Part shown: piece after piece, positions 28,299 through 37,744 of the stretch | Numbering within the stretch: position 1 is the stretch's first letter | Layout of the letters: each line of letters starts with the position of its first letter | Assembly: GCA_902604565.1 (NCBI GenBank) | Contig: CACKZF010000007.1 | Coordinates: 1-37,744, forward strand | Reading direction: 5' to 3' | DNA length: 37,744 nucleotides | Source of the DNA: an uncultured Pelagibacteraceae bacterium | GTDB lineage: Bacteria > Pseudomonadota > Alphaproteobacteria > Pelagibacterales > Pelagibacteraceae | The notes under the pieces: generated by a model | Seen by the model: only the letters and a program-made list of their open reading frames with translations | The model's database searches: none | What the model was told of the DNA's origin: nothing | Position numbers and translations under genes: made by a program

Positions 28299-29315
28299 CT
28301 AATTTATTTTTAATTGTTCAAATTTTTTTGACTTAACTGATTTTTGTGCAGCTTCTGCTAACATTATAGACTTTCTTCCATCTTCAAAATCACCTCTAGG
28401 TTTAATATTTTTTTTGCAAAATTTTGCAAGGTCAGATAGTTGCAACCTAAAAGCTTCTGCATATCTCTCTATAAAAAAATGGAGTAGAGGGGATTTATTA
28501 TTACTTGAATTTTTTAAAAAGAGATTAGTCTCAGTATCTCTTTTATTATCTGATATCATCATTCCTTTTGTTCCGAAAAGCTCAACTCTTTGGTCATAAC
28601 CAAAACTACAATGTCTCGAATTAGTTATAATACATTGCACTCCTTTTTTCGACTTAAGCACTGCAGTTGCAAGTTCATAGTCTTTTATCTTATTAAATCT
28701 TTGATCTGATATATTACTGCCAGTGGCAAATACTGATTTAAAATCATCTGAACCTAAGTAGTATCTTGCTAAATCAAAATCATGAATCATCATGTCTTTA
28801 AAAATTCCTCCAGAACCTTTTAAATAAGACAATGAAGGAGGAGCAGGGTCTCGACTAGTTATAATAATTTTTTCTAGTTTACCTATTTTATTTTTTAACA
28901 AATTCTTTTTAAGTAAATTATGTCCAGGATCGTATCTTCTATTAAATCCCATTTGAACTTTTGGATTAAATTTTTTAATTTTTTTTAGAGATAAATTAAT
29001 TTTCTTTAAATTTAAATCTAGTGGTTTTTCACAAAAGACTACTTTTTTATATTTTGCACCCTTTTCAATAAATTTTAAATGAGTAGAAGTAGAAGAAGCT
29101 ATAAAAATACATTTAATTTCATTATCTTTAAAAGCAATATTTGGATTATTTAATGAAAAAGCATTAAATTTTTTTGAAATTTTGTTTGATAGATTTTTAT
29201 TTAAATCAAAAACATATTTTAATTCAAATTCACTATTTTTTATTAAATTACTAGCATGCATCTGGCCAATTCTACCAAGGCCAAACAGAGCGGTTTTTAT
29301 TTTATTTTTACCCAT
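28299..29315 (-). CDS. iolG: Gfo/Idh/MocA dehydrogenase, myo-inositol 2-dehydrogenase (IolG) type
   Basis: This 338-residue NAD(P)-dependent enzyme is inferred to oxidise myo-inositol to scyllo-inosose. The Rossmann start is KIKTALFGLGRIGQMHASNL, the catalytic lysine is in VVFCEKPLDL, and the motif GGIFKDMMIHDFDLARYYLG carries the Asp/His pair and is strikingly IolG-like. I chose ATG 29315 over ATG 29342 because the family begins a few residues before the Rossmann strand; the upstream gene ends at 29297, so an overlap of 19 bp remains. It follows the second dehydrogenase and belongs with the divergent iolE. Closely related sugar or cyclitol dehydrogenases share these motifs, so the substrate is probable, not proven. 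Confidence 0.82.
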   Translation of the reverse strand: MGKNKIKTALFGLGRIGQMHASNLIKNSEFELKYVFDLNKNLSNKISKKFNAFSLNNPNIAFKDNEIKCIFIASSTSTHLKFIEKGAKYKKVVFCEKPLDLNLKKINLSLKKIKKFNPKVQMGFNRRYDPGHNLLKKNLLKNKIGKLEKIIITSRDPAPPSLSYLKGSGGIFKDMMIHDFDLARYYLGSDDFKSVFATGSNISDQRFNKIKDYELATAVLKSKKGVQCIITNSRHCSFGYDQRVELFGTKGMMISDNKRDTETNLFLKNSSNNKSPLLHFFIERYAEAFRLQLSDLAKFCKKNIKPRGDFEDGRKSIMLAEAAQKSVKSKKFEQLKIN

Positions 29316-30442
29316 CTTTTTTTTCTGTTTGAAACTTTGCATGCTTCAATAAATTTTGCAGTTTCAAGTCCTTCGTCTTCATTGGGGTAAAAATACCTTT
29401 TTTTTGAATTATTTTTCAAAGAATCTGCAAATTCACGATAAATATTTGCAAATGCATCCAAATAACCTTCAGGATGACCAAATTTTAATCTAGAAAATTT
29501 TTTGGACAATTCAGCATTAAAAAAACCTCTTTCAATAAATTTTACTGCACCGTTAGATGGATTAAGTTTTAAATAGTTTGGATCGTTTTGAACCCATTCC
29601 AAACTTCCTTTCGTTCCAAAAATTCTTATTCGTAATCCATAAACTCCACCTCTAGCCATCACACTTGTCCAAAACATTCCTTTAGCTCCATTATTAAAAT
29701 TGATCATTACTTGAGCATTGTTGTCCATTTTAACTTTATTTGAAACTTGTTTAATATCTGCAAAAATAGTTTCACCTTTTAAACCTGATATATAAGTTGC
29801 CATATGATATGCATGGGAGCCAATTTCGTTTAAGACCGCTGAAGCTCCAACAATATTTTTATCTATTTTCCATTTAAACTTTTTCTTTGCATTTTTTTGT
29901 GAAATACTCTCTCCATCTGACCAATCCTGAACGTATTCAACGTTTACGTATTCAACTTTTCCAATTTTACCTTTTTCAACTAATACTTTCGCCTCTCTAA
30001 CCATAGGATAAGCAGAGTAATTGTGTGTCAAAGCATACTTAATTTTTTTATTTGATTTTATTTTTTTAAATAATTTTTTAGCTTGAGTAAGATTTCCAGC
30101 AAATGGTTTATCAGAAATTACATGTATATTTTTATCAATAAATTTTGCTGCAATAATTTGGTGACTTGAAGGAGGTGTCATTATTGCTACAACATTAATA
30201 CCATCTTTTCTTGCCGCTTCTCTTTCAGCCATTTCTCTAAAATTTGAATAGCATCTCTCTTTTAAAATACCTAGGCTTTGACCAAAGCTTTTAGATAGTT
30301 TTGAATTTCTTGAAAAAACACCAGCAACTATCTCATATTGATTATCAAATCTTGATGAAATTCTATGAACATGACCAATCCAAGATTTTGGACCACCTCC
30401 AACTACGCCGAGCTGAATTTTTTTTCCTTTAATTAATCTCAT
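29297..30442 (-). CDS. second Gfo/Idh/MocA-family oxidoreductase (cyclitol or sugar)
   Basis: This 381-residue protein has an N-terminal NAD(P) fold with QLGVVGGGPKSWIGHVHRIS, GINVVAIMTPPSSH, the lysine motif VISDKPFAG, and a C-terminal domain with ASAVLNEIGSHAYHMATYIS. It differs from its IolG-type neighbour in motif style and length, so it is not a duplication. An open frame extends to 30628, but the start at 30442 fits the Rossmann strand; the extra 62 codons lie inside the divergent iolE gene and are antisense to it. In other bacteria this type often sits beside inosose-dehydratase-like barrels. A scyllo-inositol or inositol-isomer dehydrogenase is possible; the substrate is unknown. Confidence 0.85.
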   Translation of the reverse strand: MRLIKGKKIQLGVVGGGPKSWIGHVHRISSRFDNQYEIVAGVFSRNSKLSKSFGQSLGILKERCYSNFREMAEREAARKDGINVVAIMTPPSSHQIIAAKFIDKNIHVISDKPFAGNLTQAKKLFKKIKSNKKIKYALTHNYSAYPMVREAKVLVEKGKIGKVEYVNVEYVQDWSDGESISQKNAKKKFKWKIDKNIVGASAVLNEIGSHAYHMATYISGLKGETIFADIKQVSNKVKMDNNAQVMINFNNGAKGMFWTSVMARGGVYGLRIRIFGTKGSLEWVQNDPNYLKLNPSNGAVKFIERGFFNAELSKKFSRLKFGHPEGYLDAFANIYREFADSLKNNSKKRYFYPNEDEGLETAKFIEACKVSNRKKRWVKIK

Positions 30443-30473: not shown

Positions 30474-31376
30474 ATGTCAGTAAAATTAGGTATAGCACCA
30501 ATCGCTTGGAGTAATGATGACATGCCTGAATTAGGTGGAGATACTCCTTTAGAACAATGTTTGTCAGAAGCAAGCCAGGCTGGATTTGTTGGGATTGAGT
30601 CAGGTGGTAAATTCCCAAAAACATCCAAAGAATTATTGCCGAAATTAGATAAGTATAACTTAAAATTATGCTCTGGTTGGTATAGCGGAAATCTTAGAAA
30701 AAATTCTGTTGAACAAGAAAAAAATTTAATTCAAGACCAACTTAAATTATTTAAAGATTGTGAAGCTCCATGTATCGTTTTTGCTGAAGTTTTTGGTTCT
30801 ATACAGGGCGATCCAACAAAAAAACTTTCCAATAGACCTAAGATGACGGATCAAGAATGGAAAGATTATTGCACAAAAATATCTGAACTTGCAAAATATC
30901 TTGAAGACGAGGGTATGCCTTTAGCTTACCACCATCATATGGGAACAGTTATTGAAACAGAAGAAGAAACTATTAGATTGCTAGAAAATACAGATGATAG
31001 TGTAAAATTAACTTTAGATACTGGCCATATGTTATTTGCTCAGGGAAATTCAATTAATTTAATTAATAAATTTAAGGAAAGAGTAATCCACATACACTGC
31101 AAAGATATTAGAGAAGAAGTATTAAAAAAAGCTCTTTCTGAAGATTTGAGTTTTAGGGATGCTTTTTTAGAAGGCGCCTTTACCGTACCTGGTGATGGGT
31201 GTATCGACTATAAACCTTTGTTTGATATTTTAAAAAAAAATAATTATCATGGTTGGCTTGTTGTGGAGGCTGAACAAGATCCTAAAAAAGCTAATCCACT
31301 TGAATATGCTATTAAGGGTTACAAATATATTACAGACACTTTAAAGAAATCAAATTTAGAGATTAATAATCTATAA
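30474..31376 (+). CDS. iolE: inosose dehydratase (IolE-type TIM barrel)
   Basis: This 300-residue AP-endonuclease-2-like barrel is inferred to dehydrate 2-keto-myo-inositol in inositol breakdown. Visible are VKLGIAPIAWSNDDMPELGG at the start, GFVGIESGGKFPKT, LAYHHHMGTVIETEEE, LTLDTGHMLFAQGN, VIHIHCKDIREEVL, GAFTVPGDGCIDYKPLF and GWLVVEAEQDP. The metal-binding Glu/Asp/His residues fall in the GIES, DTGH, HIHCKD and VVEAEQ segments. The start is set at ATG 30474 (MSVKLGIAP), not ATG 30441, because the extra 11 residues do not fit and would overlap the divergent gene. Only 31 bp separate the two divergent starts. The remaining inositol genes (iolB, iolC, iolD, iolJ) are not in the window. Confidence 0.9.
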   Translation: MSVKLGIAPIAWSNDDMPELGGDTPLEQCLSEASQAGFVGIESGGKFPKTSKELLPKLDKYNLKLCSGWYSGNLRKNSVEQEKNLIQDQLKLFKDCEAPCIVFAEVFGSIQGDPTKKLSNRPKMTDQEWKDYCTKISELAKYLEDEGMPLAYHHHMGTVIETEEETIRLLENTDDSVKLTLDTGHMLFAQGNSINLINKFKERVIHIHCKDIREEVLKKALSEDLSFRDAFLEGAFTVPGDGCIDYKPLFDILKKNNYHGWLVVEAEQDPKKANPLEYAIKGYKYITDTLKKSNLEINNL

Positions 31377-32327
31377 TTTTACTTTTTTACTATCTTCAAG
31401 TTTACCATCGAAAAAATCAAAAATATTTTGAATAGTTTCTTTTGCCATTCTTGTCATGCATTCCTCAGTGAATGCTGCAGCATGAGGACTTAAGAAAACT
31501 TTATCATTTTTTAATAGAGGATTATCAGCCTCTGGAGGTTCTACCTCAAATACATCAATTCCTGCTCCAAAAATCAAATTTTCATTCAAAGCCCTATCTA
31601 AATCTTTTTCATTTATAATACCGCCCCTTGCAGCATTTATGATGATGCAGTTTTTTTTCATTGTTTTTAGAAGTTCATAATTTATAATATTTTTAGTTTG
31701 ATCAGTTAAAGGTATATGGAGTGAGACAGCATCCATATCTTTAATAGCCGCTGACAAATCTTCAACTTTTTTACCACCCATTTTGCTTATTGTTTCTGTA
31801 TCTACAAATGGATCGTAAACAAAAACGTTCATTTCAAATCCTAAACATCTTTTGATCAACGCTTTTCCTATTCTTCCAAATCCAGCAATAAGAATGTTTT
31901 TATCCCAAATCTCTATAGTTTTTGGTAATTTATTTCGTTCAGTAAATTTTCCACTTTTGACTGAATGGTCATACATATTTTTTCTTTTTGAGATACTTAA
32001 AAGCATAAAAAGAACATGTTCTGCAACTGCTACAGCATTTGCTGTTGCAGTTATTGCTACATCGATATTTCCTTTTTTACAGCTATTTAAATCAATATTA
32101 TCGTAACCAACTCCATGTCTTGAAATTATTTTAAGGTTTTTTGCATTTTCAATTGCCTCAGCAGGCAATATTGAAGTTCTTAAAGAAACTGCGTCTGCAT
32201 CAACAATTTTTTGTTTTACATTTTCAACACTTAAATCTTCAACAACCTCGTAACTATAGTTACTATTACTTTTTAATAATTCCATACCTTTTTCATGAAT
32301 AGGTTGGACAATGAGAATTTTTTTCAT
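31371..32327 (-). CDS. D-2-hydroxyacid dehydrogenase (SerA-like family)
   Basis: This 318-residue NAD-dependent dehydrogenase shows RHGVGYDNIDL (with the substrate-binding Arg), the Rossmann segment NILIAGFGRIGKALIKRCLG with FVYDPF, VSLHIPLTDQT, IINAARGGIINEKDL with the catalytic Arg, GIDVFEVEPPEADNPLL (Glu) and VFLSPHAAAFTEEC with the proton-donor His. It lacks the ACT domain of serine-pathway PGDH, so a catabolic 2-keto/2-hydroxy acid substrate is likelier. It is the last gene of the minus-strand operon that starts with the PanE-like gene, and it converges with iolE (6-bp overlap). Confidence 0.9.
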   Translation of the reverse strand: MKKILIVQPIHEKGMELLKSNSNYSYEVVEDLSVENVKQKIVDADAVSLRTSILPAEAIENAKNLKIISRHGVGYDNIDLNSCKKGNIDVAITATANAVAVAEHVLFMLLSISKRKNMYDHSVKSGKFTERNKLPKTIEIWDKNILIAGFGRIGKALIKRCLGFEMNVFVYDPFVDTETISKMGGKKVEDLSAAIKDMDAVSLHIPLTDQTKNIINYELLKTMKKNCIIINAARGGIINEKDLDRALNENLIFGAGIDVFEVEPPEADNPLLKNDKVFLSPHAAAFTEECMTRMAKETIQNIFDFFDGKLEDSKKVKL

Positions 32328-32342
32328 AATTTAAAAAAGAAA

Positions 32343-33332
32343 TTATACTAGTCTAGCAAGATCTCTTTTACTATTTTTAAATGTTGGAAGTGGATATTTA
32401 AATGCATACTTTCTTGGAATACATTTATTCTTTGCCTTTTCCCATAAAGCAATCCATTGCTTATAATTGTGGATGGTAATATTTTTTTTATTTTTACTTC
32501 TTACATAAAAATTGGGTAAAGGTTTCCTACCAGATGGGGTTCCAGCTCTATTGTATCTTAAATCAGCGCTAATTCTAAAATCATTAGATCTATTAGGCAA
32601 TGAACAATGAATAGAATGTTTGTGTAAAATAATAATATCGCCAACATTAGCTTCTAGAAAAACTGGTTTGTAATTATCAAGTAGTTTACTATCTTTTATT
32701 TCGACCTGACCTCTATATCCCGATATATGATTCAATAGTCCCAATTTATTAATTTCTTTTACTGTAATCATACATCCATTTTTTTTTGTAGTTTTAGTAA
32801 ATGGAATCCAAACAGTAACCATATCTGTTAATCTTTGTCCCAAAGATGATAATACTGCTGCATCCTGATGCCATGGTGTTCTGCCTGAGAGACCATCGTG
32901 AACAGAATGTTTAGGTAATTTATTTTCAGGTTGTTTAATTCTGGTATTTTGAACTGGATTTGAAAGTATCTCTGGCCCTAATAATTTTTCAACCACATCC
33001 AAGATATTTCTGTGATTTATTAAATTCCATAAAGATTGAGATGCAAAATAATCACTATCTCTCTTCACATGATCTCTTGGAAGTCTGGTGTTAAAATATT
33101 GATCAAGATCATAAATATTTAGTTTTGAAATGTAAGTATATTTTTTCCTAAAGTTATATTTAAATATTTTTTCTTTCATGTTCTCAGGAGCAAATTTATG
33201 AACTAAATTGTCCATTACATATTCCATGTCATTTAAAATTGGTTTTAGATCTTTATTGAAGTTAAGAACATTTCTTACTCTTAAGAAGCCATCCCTATCT
33301 AAAATACTCTTTAATTTAGTCTTAATTTGCAT
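32343..33332 (-). CDS. phytanoyl-CoA dioxygenase (PhyH) family oxygenase
   Basis: This 329-residue protein is of the PhyH family of Fe(II)/2-oxoglutarate oxygenases. The metal ligands are H155 and D157 in RTPWHQDAAVLSS and the distal His in HSIHCSLPNRSNDFR (His242), with Arg253 as the likely 2-oxoglutarate ligand. The N-terminal DRDGFLRVRNVLNF is typical. PhyH-family members hydroxylate small molecules (acyl-CoAs, ectoine, methylphosphonate and others), so the substrate is open. It lies 15 bp before the dehydrogenase gene and 5 bp after the second oxygenase gene, in one operon. Confidence 0.87.
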   Translation of the reverse strand: MQIKTKLKSILDRDGFLRVRNVLNFNKDLKPILNDMEYVMDNLVHKFAPENMKEKIFKYNFRKKYTYISKLNIYDLDQYFNTRLPRDHVKRDSDYFASQSLWNLINHRNILDVVEKLLGPEILSNPVQNTRIKQPENKLPKHSVHDGLSGRTPWHQDAAVLSSLGQRLTDMVTVWIPFTKTTKKNGCMITVKEINKLGLLNHISGYRGQVEIKDSKLLDNYKPVFLEANVGDIIILHKHSIHCSLPNRSNDFRISADLRYNRAGTPSGRKPLPNFYVRSKNKKNITIHNYKQWIALWEKAKNKCIPRKYAFKYPLPTFKNSKRDLARLV

Positions 33333-33337
33333 AATTA

Positions 33338-34198
33338 CTAATTTTTTAGCAAATAATTTGAGTCATGAAAAGATGTAAGCATTCTTTTTTTCGTCGCAAC
33401 AATATGTGGATGATATTCAGAATTTTTATATTTCCATATTACTGGTTTATTAAGAGCATAACTTCCATAAATAAAAAATCTTTTTTGACAGTTTTTTTCC
33501 TTAAATCTTTTTACTCCGTGATAAGAATTAGGAGTAGATTTAAAGAAAATTACACTTCCCTGTTTTGGTATAAATTCTTTTAATTTATCAAGTTCATTAA
33601 TCTTAGGAAACCTTCTAAAGTTTTTTCTAATGTTTTTGTTTGCTTTTTTCTTATATAAAGTAAGTGATCCTCCATTTTTTTTTGGTATATCGGTTAAATA
33701 GATCAAAAAATTATATATCCTATTCACATCATCTCTATGAGGTCTCAATTTATATCCTCCTTTAGATACTGAGAAATCAATATCTAAATTTAAATTTGGG
33801 TTTTTGTAATTATTACCTAATAGTTTTTTAAGCTCTTTGGAATTTACTTTTCTTTTAAGTGTATATTTTTTTTTATTAAATATTTTTGGTTTAAATAAAC
33901 TTTCCCAAGTATTTGCCTTAAACTCTGCTTTAAATTTTTTATCAATTTTCTTATAAAACGAATGTGTATTGAAAGTAGCAAAAAGTTTTTTTGAGATTTT
34001 AGAACTTGAGATATATTTGTTGAAATTTTTTGATCCTTTGTTAATCCTGCTTCTGCCGCCCATAATCATGTCATCAAAACTTTTTGAATTACTTATTTCT
34101 TTAATTAAATAATTGCAGACTTTTTTACTGATTATTTGTTCTCCAACAATGACCGGGAAATTTGATTTAATTTTCTTTAGTTTATTAATTTTCAGCAT
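33338..34198 (-). CDS. 2-oxoglutarate/Fe(II)-dependent oxygenase (prolyl-4-hydroxylase-like)
   Basis: This 286-residue protein has a very basic, Lys/Asn-rich N-terminal half and a C-terminal double-stranded beta-helix core. The iron-binding triad is visible as H154 and D156 (GGYKLRPHRDDVNRIYNFL) and His227 (NSYHGVKRF), with Arg240 (QKRFFIYGSYA) for 2-oxoglutarate. KKNGGSLTLYKKK and PKQGSVIFFKSTP are typical surrounding strands. It is unrelated in motif spacing to the neighbouring PhyH-type gene, so the operon carries two different oxygenases. It starts directly after the PanE-like stop. The substrate is unknown, and a sugar or protein substrate cannot be ruled out. Confidence 0.85.
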   Translation of the reverse strand: MLKINKLKKIKSNFPVIVGEQIISKKVCNYLIKEISNSKSFDDMIMGGRSRINKGSKNFNKYISSSKISKKLFATFNTHSFYKKIDKKFKAEFKANTWESLFKPKIFNKKKYTLKRKVNSKELKKLLGNNYKNPNLNLDIDFSVSKGGYKLRPHRDDVNRIYNFLIYLTDIPKKNGGSLTLYKKKANKNIRKNFRRFPKINELDKLKEFIPKQGSVIFFKSTPNSYHGVKRFKEKNCQKRFFIYGSYALNKPVIWKYKNSEYHPHIVATKKRMLTSFHDSNYLLKN

Positions 34199-35143
34199 TT
34201 AGCTGTACATGCCCTCTTTTACTTTAATCATTTTGTACATAAGGTCATTTAATGGTGTGGCTATTCCATGTTTTTTTCCTATTTTAGATACGGCGCCACT
34301 TATGAAATCAATTTCAGTTTTTCTTTTATAAAGTACATCAAAAGCCATTGAAGACTTATTTGTTTGTTTTGAGTCAACAATTTTATTAAACATAAATAAA
34401 CATTCATTTTCAGAAACATTAACACCATCTGCTAAAGCAACGTCTCTTGTTTCTAATATTATCTCTTTTCCTAAACTTCTAGAAACGTCGTTAGCATTAT
34501 TATTTATGTAAAGATCGGTATGATGTAGATCAAAAATAGCTGAAAGTGGTCCTATTGCGGTTAAAGCAAAAAGTTTCATCCATTTTCTTTTTTTTACATC
34601 CTCAGCTGCAATCATTTCTAAATTATGAGCAGTAAATGTGTCTGCAATTTCGGTTATTCTATCTGAAATCCCACCATCATATTCTCCAATCCAAGAGGGT
34701 AGAGCAGCATGATTCATAATATGACCAGGACCTAAGATATTTGATGCTTGAGTTGTTGTTCCCCCGATTACTTTTTCATCGCCAACAATACTTTTAATTA
34801 TAGCTTCATGTCCAATTCCATTTTGAAAAGACATAAAAACTGTTTTATCGCTAATAATATTTTTAATACTTTTTAAAGCAGGTTCTAAAGCTGTTGCTTT
34901 ACACATGACTATCACAGCATCAACTTTTCCAATTGTAGAGGGATCTGATGTTGCTGGTACTTTTATAAATCTATCACCACCATGACCATCCATTTTTAGA
35001 CCATTTTTATTTATTTCATCAACATGCTCTTTCCAAACGTCAATGAGCGTTACATTTAGACCTTTTTCTGCCAGTAAGCCTCCAAATAGACAACCCATTG
35101 CCCCTGCACCAAGAACTGCAACTTTTAAATCTTTATTATTCAT
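34199..35143 (-). CDS. ketopantoate reductase (PanE/ApbA) family protein with an altered active site
   Basis: This 314-residue protein has the PanE/ApbA two-domain fold: LKVAVLGAGAMGCLFGGLLA (NADP site), DAVIVMCKATALEPAL, SFQNGIGHEAII, VIGGTTTQASNILGPGHIMN and KRKWMKLFALTAIGPLSAIF. In E. coli PanE, catalytic Lys176 is followed by Asn180 and Asn184 (KxxxNxxxN). Here the Lys is present but those positions are Leu and Gly, so a true ketopantoate reductase is doubtful and a related 2-keto or hydroxy acid is likelier. It leads a minus-strand operon (two dioxygenases, then a hydroxyacid dehydrogenase) and is divergent from the DUF1907 gene with 63 bp between. Confidence 0.82.
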   Translation of the reverse strand: MNNKDLKVAVLGAGAMGCLFGGLLAEKGLNVTLIDVWKEHVDEINKNGLKMDGHGGDRFIKVPATSDPSTIGKVDAVIVMCKATALEPALKSIKNIISDKTVFMSFQNGIGHEAIIKSIVGDEKVIGGTTTQASNILGPGHIMNHAALPSWIGEYDGGISDRITEIADTFTAHNLEMIAAEDVKKRKWMKLFALTAIGPLSAIFDLHHTDLYINNNANDVSRSLGKEIILETRDVALADGVNVSENECLFMFNKIVDSKQTNKSSMAFDVLYKRKTEIDFISGAVSKIGKKHGIATPLNDLMYKMIKVKEGMYS

Positions 35144-35206
35144 TTTTAAAATCGAAATATATTTATGTAAAAAAATTATGCAATATATTATGTAACTAAT
35201 TTATAT

Positions 35207-36175
35207 ATGGATTTAAAAATAGAAAAAGGAATTTTCAAAAAATTTAAGTTAGAAGAAATATCAAACGCGTTAGAAAAAGGTCTGTCAAAGAATTATGACA
35301 GTGTAAAAGCAGAAGTAATTGATTGTCCAAATTTAAGAAACTGGGATTGTCCGTCTGAAGGCATGAGTGGTAACCAAAGGATAATCGATGTAGGAGGAGA
35401 GCCTTACATGCATGATCCTAAATATCTTGGAACTGAATTTGATTATTCAGAAATCTCTAAAATGATTGGATCAGAAAGATCGTACGCACTTGGCGCAGGA
35501 TCTGGAGCAATGTCTTGCCTGGATGGACACTGTGGAGAATTGGTTATAAATGAAAACTTTATAACAAAAGAAAATAAATCTTTAATTGCTAGGGTAGGAA
35601 AAGATAAAGAATGTATAGTAGAGGACTATACCGCAAGCAAACATGGTGGGCTAGGTAATGTTTATTATTCAGATGGTGTTAAAGGAAAAGTTATATATTT
35701 AAAGATAAAAAAAAGAATTGGAAAACAAGGTTCATTACCTCAATCAATAAGAACAGTACTTTCAGAAAATCTTAAAATTGGGAATAAAGATCATATTGCT
35801 CTTGCTGGTGTATTTAGAGTTTTGAATGGAAAAATAAGATCACACGTACAACCAGATTATAAGGATATAAAACATGAATATTATGATCCACAATTGATGA
35901 AATGCACAAAAGATTTTCTACAATTTTACGAGCCTGTTGGACCAAAATTACAATGTTATACTGTTTTATGGACTGGTGATCCAACGGGGGGAGAATTAAA
36001 TTTAAGAGAGTCCGGTGAGCATACTCATTTTCACTCATATGAGCAAAAGAATGATGCTGGACATTATCATTTTGATGTAACTCCAGATGATATTGAATAT
36101 GAAGGATATTTTAATATTGCACAAGAAGTACATAGAGTGAATAATATCTATAAAGAATTAAAAAATATTAAATGA
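35207..36175 (+). CDS. DUF1907 family protein, homologue of human C11orf54 (PTD012)
   Basis: This 322-residue protein has the DUF1907 signature: YALGAGSGAMSCLDGHCGEL near residue 93, ARVGKDKECIVEDYTA and then GKVIYLKIKKRIG, and the C-terminal EHTHFHSYEQ (His272, His274, His276), AGHYHFDVTPDDIEYEGYF (His286, His288). In the human protein structure a zinc ion is bound by three histidines of this HxHxH/HYH region and ester hydrolase activity was reported. The natural substrate is not established. It opens a plus-strand pair with the PanB-like gene (4-bp ATGA overlap) and lies divergent to the oxygenase operon, so it probably acts in the same pathway. Confidence 0.88.
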   Translation: MDLKIEKGIFKKFKLEEISNALEKGLSKNYDSVKAEVIDCPNLRNWDCPSEGMSGNQRIIDVGGEPYMHDPKYLGTEFDYSEISKMIGSERSYALGAGSGAMSCLDGHCGELVINENFITKENKSLIARVGKDKECIVEDYTASKHGGLGNVYYSDGVKGKVIYLKIKKRIGKQGSLPQSIRTVLSENLKIGNKDHIALAGVFRVLNGKIRSHVQPDYKDIKHEYYDPQLMKCTKDFLQFYEPVGPKLQCYTVLWTGDPTGGELNLRESGEHTHFHSYEQKNDAGHYHFDVTPDDIEYEGYFNIAQEVHRVNNIYKELKNIK

Positions 36176-36987
36176 AAAAGATTTATACTTGGGCCGCTCA
36201 ACCTGCTAACAGAACTCTTACAGTTGATGATCTTAAAAAAGCAAAAGGAAAAAAAAAATTTACTCAAGTTACAGCTAATACAATAGATGAAGCTGAGGCC
36301 GCAGAGAAGGCTGGATTTGACATGATAATCTGCAATTCTTTTAATGTAAAACAGGTGAGAGAGGGATCAAAGAGCCTATTTTTAACTGCTGCGCTTGTAT
36401 TAAATAAGTTTGTTACTTCAGAAGATATAATGAGAGGAGCGTTTGAAGCCCTAGAAAATGGAGCTGATGCAGTAATGACACCTAGAAGTATGAAGATCAT
36501 AGAGATGTTGGCTAATGAGGATGTTCCAGTTATGGGACATCTTGGTTTAGTTCCAAGAAAATCCACATGGATTGGTGGTTTAAGAGCAGTAGGAAAAAAT
36601 TGCGAAGAGGCACATGACCTTTTTTTAAAATTTAAAAGATTAGAGGATGCGGGAGCTTTTTCTGCTGAATGTGAGGTTATCCCAGAAAATGTAATGGGAG
36701 AAATCTCTAAAAGAACAAATATAGTTACAGTATCTTTAGGTTCAGGAAAGAAAGCAGACGTAATGTATCTGTTCATGGAAGATATATGTGGAGATAATTT
36801 AAATCCTCCAAGACATTCAAAAGCTTATGGAAATTTATTAAAATTAAAAAATGAAATTAAAATTGAGAGAGTTCGAGCTCTTAAGGCATTCAAAAAAGAT
36901 TCAATGGCAGGAAAATTTCCAGGAAAAAAACAATCTTCAAATTTAAATAAAAAAGAGTTCGAGTCTTTTCTTGATAAGCTTGATTAA
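36172..36987 (+). CDS. PanB-like (ketopantoate hydroxymethyltransferase superfamily) barrel protein, divergent
   Basis: This 271-residue (beta/alpha)8 protein is related to PanB: VMGHLGLVPRKSTW matches the GHLGLTPQ loop, KNCEEAHDLFLKFKRLEDAG and AFSAECEVIPENVMGEISK match the region with the catalytic Glu, and VTVSLGSGKKADV matches the IGIGAG loop. The metal-binding Asp segments of PanB (GDSLG and VVADMPF) and its EGG are not seen; in their place are MIICNSFNVKQVREG and MTPRSMKIIEML. It is therefore likely a related aldolase or lyase rather than a pantothenate enzyme. It overlaps DUF1907 by 4 bp and converges with the aldolase gene by 4 bp. Confidence 0.78.
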   Translation: MKKIYTWAAQPANRTLTVDDLKKAKGKKKFTQVTANTIDEAEAAEKAGFDMIICNSFNVKQVREGSKSLFLTAALVLNKFVTSEDIMRGAFEALENGADAVMTPRSMKIIEMLANEDVPVMGHLGLVPRKSTWIGGLRAVGKNCEEAHDLFLKFKRLEDAGAFSAECEVIPENVMGEISKRTNIVTVSLGSGKKADVMYLFMEDICGDNLNPPRHSKAYGNLLKLKNEIKIERVRALKAFKKDSMAGKFPGKKQSSNLNKKEFESFLDKLD

Positions 36988-37744
36988 TATGTTTCAGATT
37001 CTTTTTTACTTATTGAGCCTTTCATTTTTTCAACAATTGCCTTAGCCCCAGCACTCATTGCTCTTTGATCTGCACCAATAGTTACAAAGTTAAATCCTTT
37101 GTCGATCATTTTTTGTGCGTACTCTGGCGTTCCATTATGAATTCCTGCAAAAATATTATTTTTTTTGGCATGCTCTAAAATTCTAAGAATTTCAGAATAT
37201 GCCTTTGTATCTTCTGGTCTATCAAATCCAGGCTTTTCTCCAATTGCTAAACTTAAGTCAGCTGGGCCAATATATATTCCATCTACACCATCTGTAGACA
37301 TAATCTCATCTAATTTATCTAATGATTCTTTGGTTTCAATCATAGCTAATTTTAAAATTTCGTCATTTGCATGGTCGGCATAATCAGCTCCACCATAAAT
37401 CAATCCTCTAACAGGACCAAAACTTCTATATCCTCTTGGAGGGTACATGCAGGCTTGTACAAATTTCTCTGCTTCTTCTTTATTACTTACCATAGGACAT
37501 ATAATTCCATAACAACCGGCGTCTAAAATTTTCATTATTTGACCTGGTTCATTCCAATTTACTCTAGCAAGAGGAGTTACTTCAGTTGATGAAATAGTTT
37601 GAAGCATTGGAAGTGCATTTGTGTAATCTACAAGTCCATGCTGCATATCTACAGTTAGAGAATCCCAACCTTGATGCGCCATAACTTCAGCTGATACAGT
37701 GCTTGGTATTTGCAACCAACCATTTACTACAGGCTTACCTTCAG
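36984..37744 (-). CDS. HpcH/HpaI-family aldolase, cut by the right edge
   Basis: This class II pyruvate-type aldolase is partial: the frame stays open to the right edge, so the TTG at 37715 is not the start and the first residues are missing. The upstream codons read GKPVVNGW before LQIPSTVSAEVM. Family motifs are DSLTVDMQHGLVDY, PLARVNWNEPGQIMKILDAG, ARG/YPPRGYRSFGPVRGL, MIETKESLDKLDEIMSTDGV, DGIYIGPADLSLAIG and GIHNGTPEYA (the latter three hold the metal-binding Glu and the substrate loop). Enzymes of this family split 4-hydroxy-2-oxo acids into pyruvate and an aldehyde. The substrate is unknown, but it fits the sugar/keto-acid context. Confidence 0.9.
   Translation of the reverse strand, partial: EGKPVVNGWLQIPSTVSAEVMAHQGWDSLTVDMQHGLVDYTNALPMLQTISSTEVTPLARVNWNEPGQIMKILDAGCYGIICPMVSNKEEAEKFVQACMYPPRGYRSFGPVRGLIYGGADYADHANDEILKLAMIETKESLDKLDEIMSTDGVDGIYIGPADLSLAIGEKPGFDRPEDTKAYSEILRILEHAKKNNIFAGIHNGTPEYAQKMIDKGFNFVTIGADQRAMSAGAKAIVEKMKGSISKKESETY

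Follow-up and report, generated by a model that had tools for sequence, protein, structure and literature searches.

Gene content at the end of the contig

The stretch of DNA analysed here (the window, 37,744 nucleotides) is one whole contig, CACKZF010000007.1, of an uncultured SAR11 bacterium (Pelagibacteraceae; assembly GCA_902604565.1), whose genome is 65% complete and is probably a single-cell assembly, like those of its named relatives. A sequence-only reading had placed seven genes at 31371-37744 and joined them in one candidate pathway, and all seven are present there as long open reading frames (ORFs) matching the families named. We find, however, that the stretch is two modules and not one seven-gene pathway: an unusual inositol cluster (module A) and a movable DUF1907 cassette (module B). 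The genes concerned are as follows.

28299..29342, minus strand: IolG-like inositol 2-dehydrogenase (TIGR04380 343 bits, cut-off 355); module A flank
29297..30442, minus strand: Gfo1, Gfo/Idh/MocA dehydrogenase (family match); module A flank
30474..31376, plus strand: IolE, inosose dehydratase (TIGR04379 413 bits, cut-off 290); module A flank
31371..32327, minus strand: HADH, D-2-hydroxyacid dehydrogenase (PF02826/PF00389, 2-Hacid_dh); module A
32343..33332, minus strand: PhyH-family Fe(II)/2-oxoglutarate (2OG) oxygenase (PF05721 63.5 bits); cassette B
33338..34198, minus strand: OG2, second Fe(II)/2OG oxygenase (PF13640, 2OG-FeII_Oxy_3); cassette B
34199..35143, minus strand: PanE/ApbA-family dehydrogenase (ApbA/ApbA_C; TIGR00745 235 bits, cut-off 141); cassette B
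35207..36175, plus strand: DUF1907, predicted zinc 3-oxo-acid decarboxylase (PF08925 196 bits, cut-off 25); cassette B
36172..36987, plus strand: PanB-like TIM barrel without the PanB metal site (PF02548, Pantoate_transf, from profile position 67); cassette B
36984..37742, minus strand: HpcH/HpaI class II aldolase (PF03328, HpcH_HpaI), start beyond the contig end; module A

Module A consists of HADH and HpcH, with an aldehyde dehydrogenase (ALDH) past the contig end, in the SAR11 inositol cluster, and module B consists of PhyH, OG2, PanE-like, DUF1907 and PanB-like as a separate cassette inserted between HpcH and HADH. The listed ORF of Gfo1 runs to 30628, and its likely start is the ATG at 30442 because the family match begins past that ATG; that of IolE runs from 30441, with a likely start at the ATG at 30474. 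The PanE-like gene is divergent from the DUF1907 gene, which overlaps PanB-like by 4 nt, as it does in 44 of the 62 loci with both genes. The contig ends at 37744, inside the HpcH gene, and comparison with L004, a close relative with protein identities of 93 to 99% in the genes that both have, places the first 11 HpcH residues beyond it. Past the point at which the window stops, L004 encodes ALDH and, facing it, IolD (795 bits, cut-off 715), so that IolD lies outside the window because the contig ends. Farther on come genes for a Gfo/Idh dehydrogenase and for a second 2-hydroxyacid dehydrogenase, along with an ABC transporter, the binding protein of which is nearest to allose and ribose binding proteins; a transporter past 37744, as had been suggested, is thus seen in a close relative. 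The ten genes from IolG to HpcH have ratios of nonsynonymous to synonymous substitution (dN/dS) of 0.02 to 0.25 (up to six relatives each), which indicates purifying selection. A promoter and terminator scan gave counts equal to those of shuffled sequence (34 vs. 33.8 and 3 vs. 2.8).

Recurrence of the linkage across SAR11

We examined 80 loci (L004-L083), the best 80 of 170 Pelagibacteraceae stretches encoding a DUF1907 relative, and counted each gene only over the loci long enough to judge it. PanE accompanied DUF1907 in 80/80 loci, PhyH in 73/73, OG2 in 70/76 and PanB-like in 62/79. The counts for the module A genes were HpcH 75/76, ALDH 72/73, IolD 66/67 and HADH 58/71, with IolE at 57/70, IolG at 56/68 and HADH2, a second 2-hydroxyacid dehydrogenase, at 57/61. 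Because this co-presence recurs through the DUF1907 loci, the linkage of the seven genes is not due to chance, and the expectation of a recurring linkage in relatives withstood the comparison. Loci L012 and L015, in which there are inverted second copies or a flipped order around DUF1907 and which are probably single-cell amplification chimeras, are included in these counts; the single miss for HpcH, ALDH, IolD and Gfo2 is L015.

A MarR-like winged-helix protein of 138 residues (L069:11006-11422 and orthologues) lies between DUF1907 and PanB-like in 22 of the 80 loci, some of which have no PanB-like gene. It is a candidate for a regulator of the kind that the earlier reading advised looking for; the MarR-type reading was made by eye, and the protein has no Pfam match.

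Within the family, DUF1907 was present in 105 of 397 genomes; it was found in 1 of 385 genomes of the class and 1 of 398 of the phylum (both times only the genome of the window itself) and in none of 25 genomes of another family sampled in the order, and a search of plasmids gave no match. IolD was found in 81 of the 105 genomes with DUF1907 vs. 77 of the 292 others, a comparison uncorrected for relatedness which takes both searches, judging by the genome handles, to have drawn on one set of 397 genomes. The pairing persists where the two genes are unlinked: outside genus g1, 49 of 69 DUF1907 genomes have IolD. This co-occurrence may be a matter of shared ancestry.

Empty sites for the cassette

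A second set of SAR11 loci was centred on IolD instead of DUF1907; 20 regions were hand-picked from IolD matches and one that proved not to be an IolD region (L142) was dropped, leaving 19. Six of these genomes (G399, G474, G671, G567, G413, and G461) have DUF1907 at another place. In all 19 loci HpcH-ALDH faces IolD-Gfo2, and in 18 of them there is no cassette within the stretch, the other, L141, being cut at PanB. Fifteen of the 19 have HADH, which directly adjoins HpcH in nine. One pair is formed by L138, which is empty, and L112, which has the cassette: their flanks are 86 and 91% identical, and the gap between HpcH and HADH is 30 bp in the former and about 5.2 kb in the latter. A second empty site is given by L140 relative to the cassette-bearing L101 and L073 (flanks 82 to 85% identical), where the neighbour in the HADH position is c38, another 2-hydroxyacid dehydrogenase, and two further divergent pairs (L135/L075 and L126/L077) agree with insertion. 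On the basis of these empty sites and cassette-free loci we assign HADH and HpcH to the inositol cluster and the five other genes to one cassette.

To the left of PhyH whole gene sets swap between IolG/Gfo1/IolE/HADH and sets that, with the transporter kinds judged by eye, look like a sugar ABC transporter set (with a 351 residue protein and a Gfo protein) and a TRAP set (with a MauG-like di-heme protein); such variants are seen in L062, L064, L069, L073, L074, and L101. Beside IolG in L129-L133, L139, L143, and L144 are c72 and c73, which have the look of an ABC permease and binding protein and are 85 to 93% identical to their best SAR11 matches, while the adjacent IolG is 60 to 63% and HADH 56 to 58% identical.

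A putative inositol route without IolB and IolC

IolG, IolE and IolD belong to families with established chemistry that together make 5-deoxyglucuronate. The guess that the substrate of the window's genes might be a cyclitol fits the genuine IolE that adjoins them and the genuine IolD just past the contig end in relatives. The later enzymes of the canonical route were sought in 17 SAR11 genomes, with completeness of 90% or more in 12. IolB was found in none of the 17 (the control search found it in 3 of 14 known genomes, all over the cut-off), nor did IolC exceed its cut-off of 300 in any of them (in the control, all 14 known genomes matched and three were over the cut-off). IolD was present in 15 of the same 17. 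Since IolB and IolC were not found, and IolD was, we consider that ALDH, HADH and HpcH probably stand in for the phosphorylating steps of the inositol route.

The steps that we propose are these. IolG, IolE and IolD would produce 5-deoxyglucuronate, the aldehyde of which ALDH would oxidise to 5-deoxyglucarate; HADH would then oxidise the 2-hydroxyl of 5-deoxyglucarate, and HpcH would split the resulting 2-keto-3,4-dihydroxy diacid by a retro-aldol reaction into hydroxypyruvate and malonate semialdehyde, which MmsA may convert to acetyl-CoA. MmsA was found over its cut-off (E 1e-100) in 15 of 18 genomes, the exceptions being G000, G399 and G404. The solved structures nearest to HADH are PGDH (1wwk) and McyI. 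For HpcH, compared by means of the full-length orthologue L004:11778-12569, the nearest is SwHKA (206 bits vs. 141 bits for HpaI), and HpcH conserves the SwHKA metal and catalytic residues Q43, H44, R69, P92, S116, E145, and D171. According to the report on it, SwHKA (6r62) was crystallised with hydroxypyruvate, and its residues F210 and R120 contact hydroxypyruvate and the aldehyde (PMC10099721).

A comparable arrangement occurs outside SAR11 in an alphaproteobacterial family, where L160:841-7936 has HADH-HpcH-ALDH-IolG facing IolD-IolE (IolD 808 bits, IolE 383 bits), with no IolB or IolC homologue inside the 15 kb of this locus. The same genome has IolD twice more, both times near IolC homologues (L174 and L175). 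In a small non-SAR11 genome, a gene that appears by eye to be of the PhyH family (L155:18805-19752) follows directly on a sugar-type ABC transporter near IolD. Among the literature matches listed no title dealt with inositol catabolism in SAR11, and the titles and abstract openings of the further papers listed contained no non-phosphorylating inositol route.

The DUF1907 cassette

The DUF1907 protein matches PF08925 over its full length (1-285 of 285) and the human protein PTD012/C11orf54 (1xcr) with E=8e-37. Its EHTHF and GHYH motifs align to 1xcr, and the HTH and HYH within them are invariant in 12/12 sequences; three of these histidines presumably bind the zinc. The ester-hydrolase name of the family goes back to the hydrolysis of p-nitrophenyl acetate by PTD012 (PMC12435205), and opening of an ester or lactone had accordingly been proposed for the window's protein. 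We have dropped an esterase as first choice, as this reading is superseded by a 2025 PNAS commentary in which C11orf54 is reported as a 3-dehydro-L-gulonate decarboxylase that structurally resembles acetolactate decarboxylase and that, in three rotifer genera, is fused to a dehydrogenase domain like the one responsible for the preceding step (PMC12435205). In the part available of a marine metagenome paper, DUF1907 is a table entry only (PMC3597751).

The two oxygenases each have a full set of candidate active site residues, PhyH with H155-x-D157, H242 and R253 and OG2 with H154-x-D156, H227 and R240, invariant in 10/10 aligned orthologues in both cases; from the family, these are taken to be the HxD...H iron triad and the 2OG-binding arginine. 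OG2 had no relative in the PDB by sequence at E 0.01, and PhyH weakly matches the model for a sporadic carbohydrate cluster oxygenase (38 bits, cut-off 150). PhyH and OG2 might act first on a sugar or cyclitol acid, by hydroxylation or O-demethylation. PanE-like would then oxidise its 3-hydroxyl to give a 3-keto acid, and DUF1907 would decarboxylate the latter, as human gulonate dehydrogenase and C11orf54 do in the analogous human steps. PanE-like, the constant companion of DUF1907 (80/80 loci), is taken to supply it with the 3-keto acid. C-methyl inositols such as laminitol and mytilitol were considered as substrates, the evidence speaking neither for nor against them.

The PanB-like protein has a TIGR00222 score of 93.6, below the cut-off of 207.55. 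It aligns to E. coli PanB (1m3u) over residues 56-254, in which H136 and E181 are conserved; D84 is replaced by A74, K112 by M102 and E114 by P104, and the region of D45 is unaligned. D45, D84 and E114 are metal ligands of PanB, and K112 is counted with them. A full-scoring PanB is found elsewhere in 14 of 15 genomes (not in G507), the cassette copies, seen in 13 of these genomes, reach 83 to 92 bits and fall short of the cut-off, and PanC matches occur in 12 of 12 genomes (10 over the cut-off; six with one stop inside the match). As the PanB metal site is gone and a true PanB is encoded elsewhere, PanB-like is probably not an enzyme of pantothenate synthesis, and it is probably not a hydroxymethyltransferase. 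This casts doubt on the two aldolase barrels of the earlier proposal, one of which was PanB-like, now seen to be without the PanB metal ligands. The AlphaFold model of the protein (pLDDT 41) was unusable.

Overall reading and alternatives

We read the stretch as two modules, namely an inositol route without IolB and IolC and a portable cassette acting on a sugar or cyclitol acid, by the steps proposed above. The probability that we attach to this reading is roughly 0.45, and all of its substrates and the order of its reactions are predictions from sequence; the catabolic character earlier ascribed to the gene set is supported. A fuller version would have SAR11 use an undescribed non-phosphorylating inositol pathway that is fed with methylated or oxidised cyclitols or sugar acids by an oxygen-dependent DUF1907 cassette, with the first bacterial 3-keto sugar acid decarboxylase of its family; this we regard as somewhat unlikely.

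Several observations weigh against the two-module reading. HpcH has V at the position of SwHKA R120 and H at that of F210, and because these residues are not conserved, to name hydroxypyruvate out of the 2-keto acids is a guess. Of the 71 judgeable cassette loci 13 are without HADH, in four of which (L068, L073, L074, and L079) c38 takes its position, and so are both g277 IolD loci viewed (L132 and L133). HADH may therefore not be required, although the presence of HADH2 in 57 of 61 loci tempers these absences. Matches to IolC below the cut-off, sugar-kinase-like and with a best score of 108 bits, were present in 17/17 genomes, and n0, which by eye resembles a ROK kinase, is encoded in 14 of the 19 IolD loci; given these kinase-like proteins, SAR11 may have a phosphorylating variant of the inositol route. 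The full set of HADH, HpcH and ALDH was found in only one of 37 IolD loci of other families (all 37 listed places outside SAR11, several shortened by contig ends). Several others of these loci have neither IolB nor IolC nearby and yet are without ALDH-HpcH-HADH; a gene missing within 20 kb may still be present in the genome. As regards the cassette, PanE-family enzymes usually act on 2-keto acids.

In addition, the genera g279 and g277 have cassette genes outside the inositol cluster. The stretch concerned contains PanB-like, an EamA transporter, PhyH, a branched-chain-amino-acid-type ABC transporter and PanE, together with an acyl-CoA ligase, an enoyl-CoA hydratase, an MR_MLE protein (nearest to arabinonate and galactonate dehydratases), a CitE-like lyase and a Gfo/Idh dehydrogenase; for g277, PhyH and PanB-like were seen in the one genome read through, G397. 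In these genera the protein encoded facing DUF1907 weakly matches HpaH-type hydratases. This gene company, with an MR_MLE protein that resembles sugar-acid dehydratases, also counts in favour of the cassette steps proposed, in that it suggests a carboxylic, sugar-acid-like substrate.

The same genera bear on the alternative that survives best, in which the cassette extends the inositol route: methylated or deoxy cyclitols would be O-demethylated or hydroxylated by PhyH and OG2 and would lose an extra carbon through PanE and DUF1907, giving a product that enters the IolD route. Consistent with this, the cassette lies beside HpcH in 75 of 76 judgeable loci, IolD follows in 66 of 67, DUF1907 and IolD co-occur even where unlinked (the 49 of 69 genomes outside g1), and PhyH has its weak match to the carbohydrate cluster oxygenase. 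In g279 and g277, however, the cassette genes keep company with the ABC transporter of branched-chain-amino-acid type, the CoA ligase, the enoyl-CoA hydratase and the CitE-like lyase instead of iol genes, and the co-occurrence with IolD may be plain relatedness, which leads us to think such an extension unlikely.

A less probable alternative still is that the genes share no pathway and were collected, unrelated, in a hypervariable sugar region of SAR11. The swapping of whole gene sets to the left of PhyH would suit such a region, as would the lack of PanB-like or OG2 from some loci. That PanE, PhyH and DUF1907 stay close in three genera with differing surroundings (in g277, PhyH in G397 only) and that the genes are under purifying selection count against this, and we find it hard to credit mere accumulation.

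The single seven-gene pathway first proposed, consisting of hydroxylation, oxidation, opening of an ester or lactone and aldol cleavage to pyruvate, has in its favour a contiguous set of genes, conserved together in most of the 80 loci and also in six g1 loci fetched apart (L100, L101, L105, L109, L112, and L113). We consider it very improbable. HADH and HpcH occur in the inositol cluster of relatives that do not have the cassette, the cassette genes occur without adjacent HpcH, HADH or iol genes in other genera, and PanB-like is missing from 17 of 79 loci, in addition to the 13 of 71 without HADH; DUF1907 is now a reported decarboxylase, and PanB-like has lost the metal ligands of PanB. Finally, action of PanE-like and PanB-like on pantoate, in pantothenate salvage or breakdown or in a second route to coenzyme A, is suggested by the family names and by PanE passing the TIGR00745 subfamily cut-off, and was rejected as having very little chance of being correct given the three replaced PanB residues, the true PanB encoded elsewhere, the PanC matches and the under-cut-off scores of the cassette copies.

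Returning to the two-module reading, SAR11 cells are some of the most abundant in the sea, and the sugars and cyclitols that they consume are poorly known. If this reading is true, a sizeable part of SAR11 (IolD is present in 158 of 397 family genomes) would draw carbon from inositol and related cyclitols. It has three testable outcomes: an inositol route free of IolB and IolC, a role for a bacterial DUF1907 protein (the human member was functionally identified only in 2025; PMC12435205) and a cassette whose effect can be read from related strains that have it or lack it.

Comparison with known systems

In relation to the canonical iol pathway, as described in its source (PMC2597717), the SAR11 cluster has in common an IolG-like protein, genuine IolE and IolD, an ABC transporter and an MmsA encoded elsewhere. 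It differs in having no IolB and no IolC over the cut-off in the genomes searched, and in having an ALDH-HpcH operon, often with HADH, beside IolD. The predicted aldolase of this operon is like SwHKA of Sphingomonas wittichii (PMC10099721) in seven residues and differs from it in the changes of R120 to V and F210 to H. PanB-like and E. coli PanB (1m3u) have the barrel family in common, and the metal-site residues of the latter are lost in the former. With human C11orf54/PTD012 (PMC12435205), the SAR11 DUF1907 protein shares homology over its whole length and the zinc histidine motif; it differs in being bacterial and coupled to PanB-like, and is a candidate decarboxylase. The partner of the human protein is a dehydrogenase of the 3HCDH family, whereas that presumed for the SAR11 protein belongs to the PanE family.

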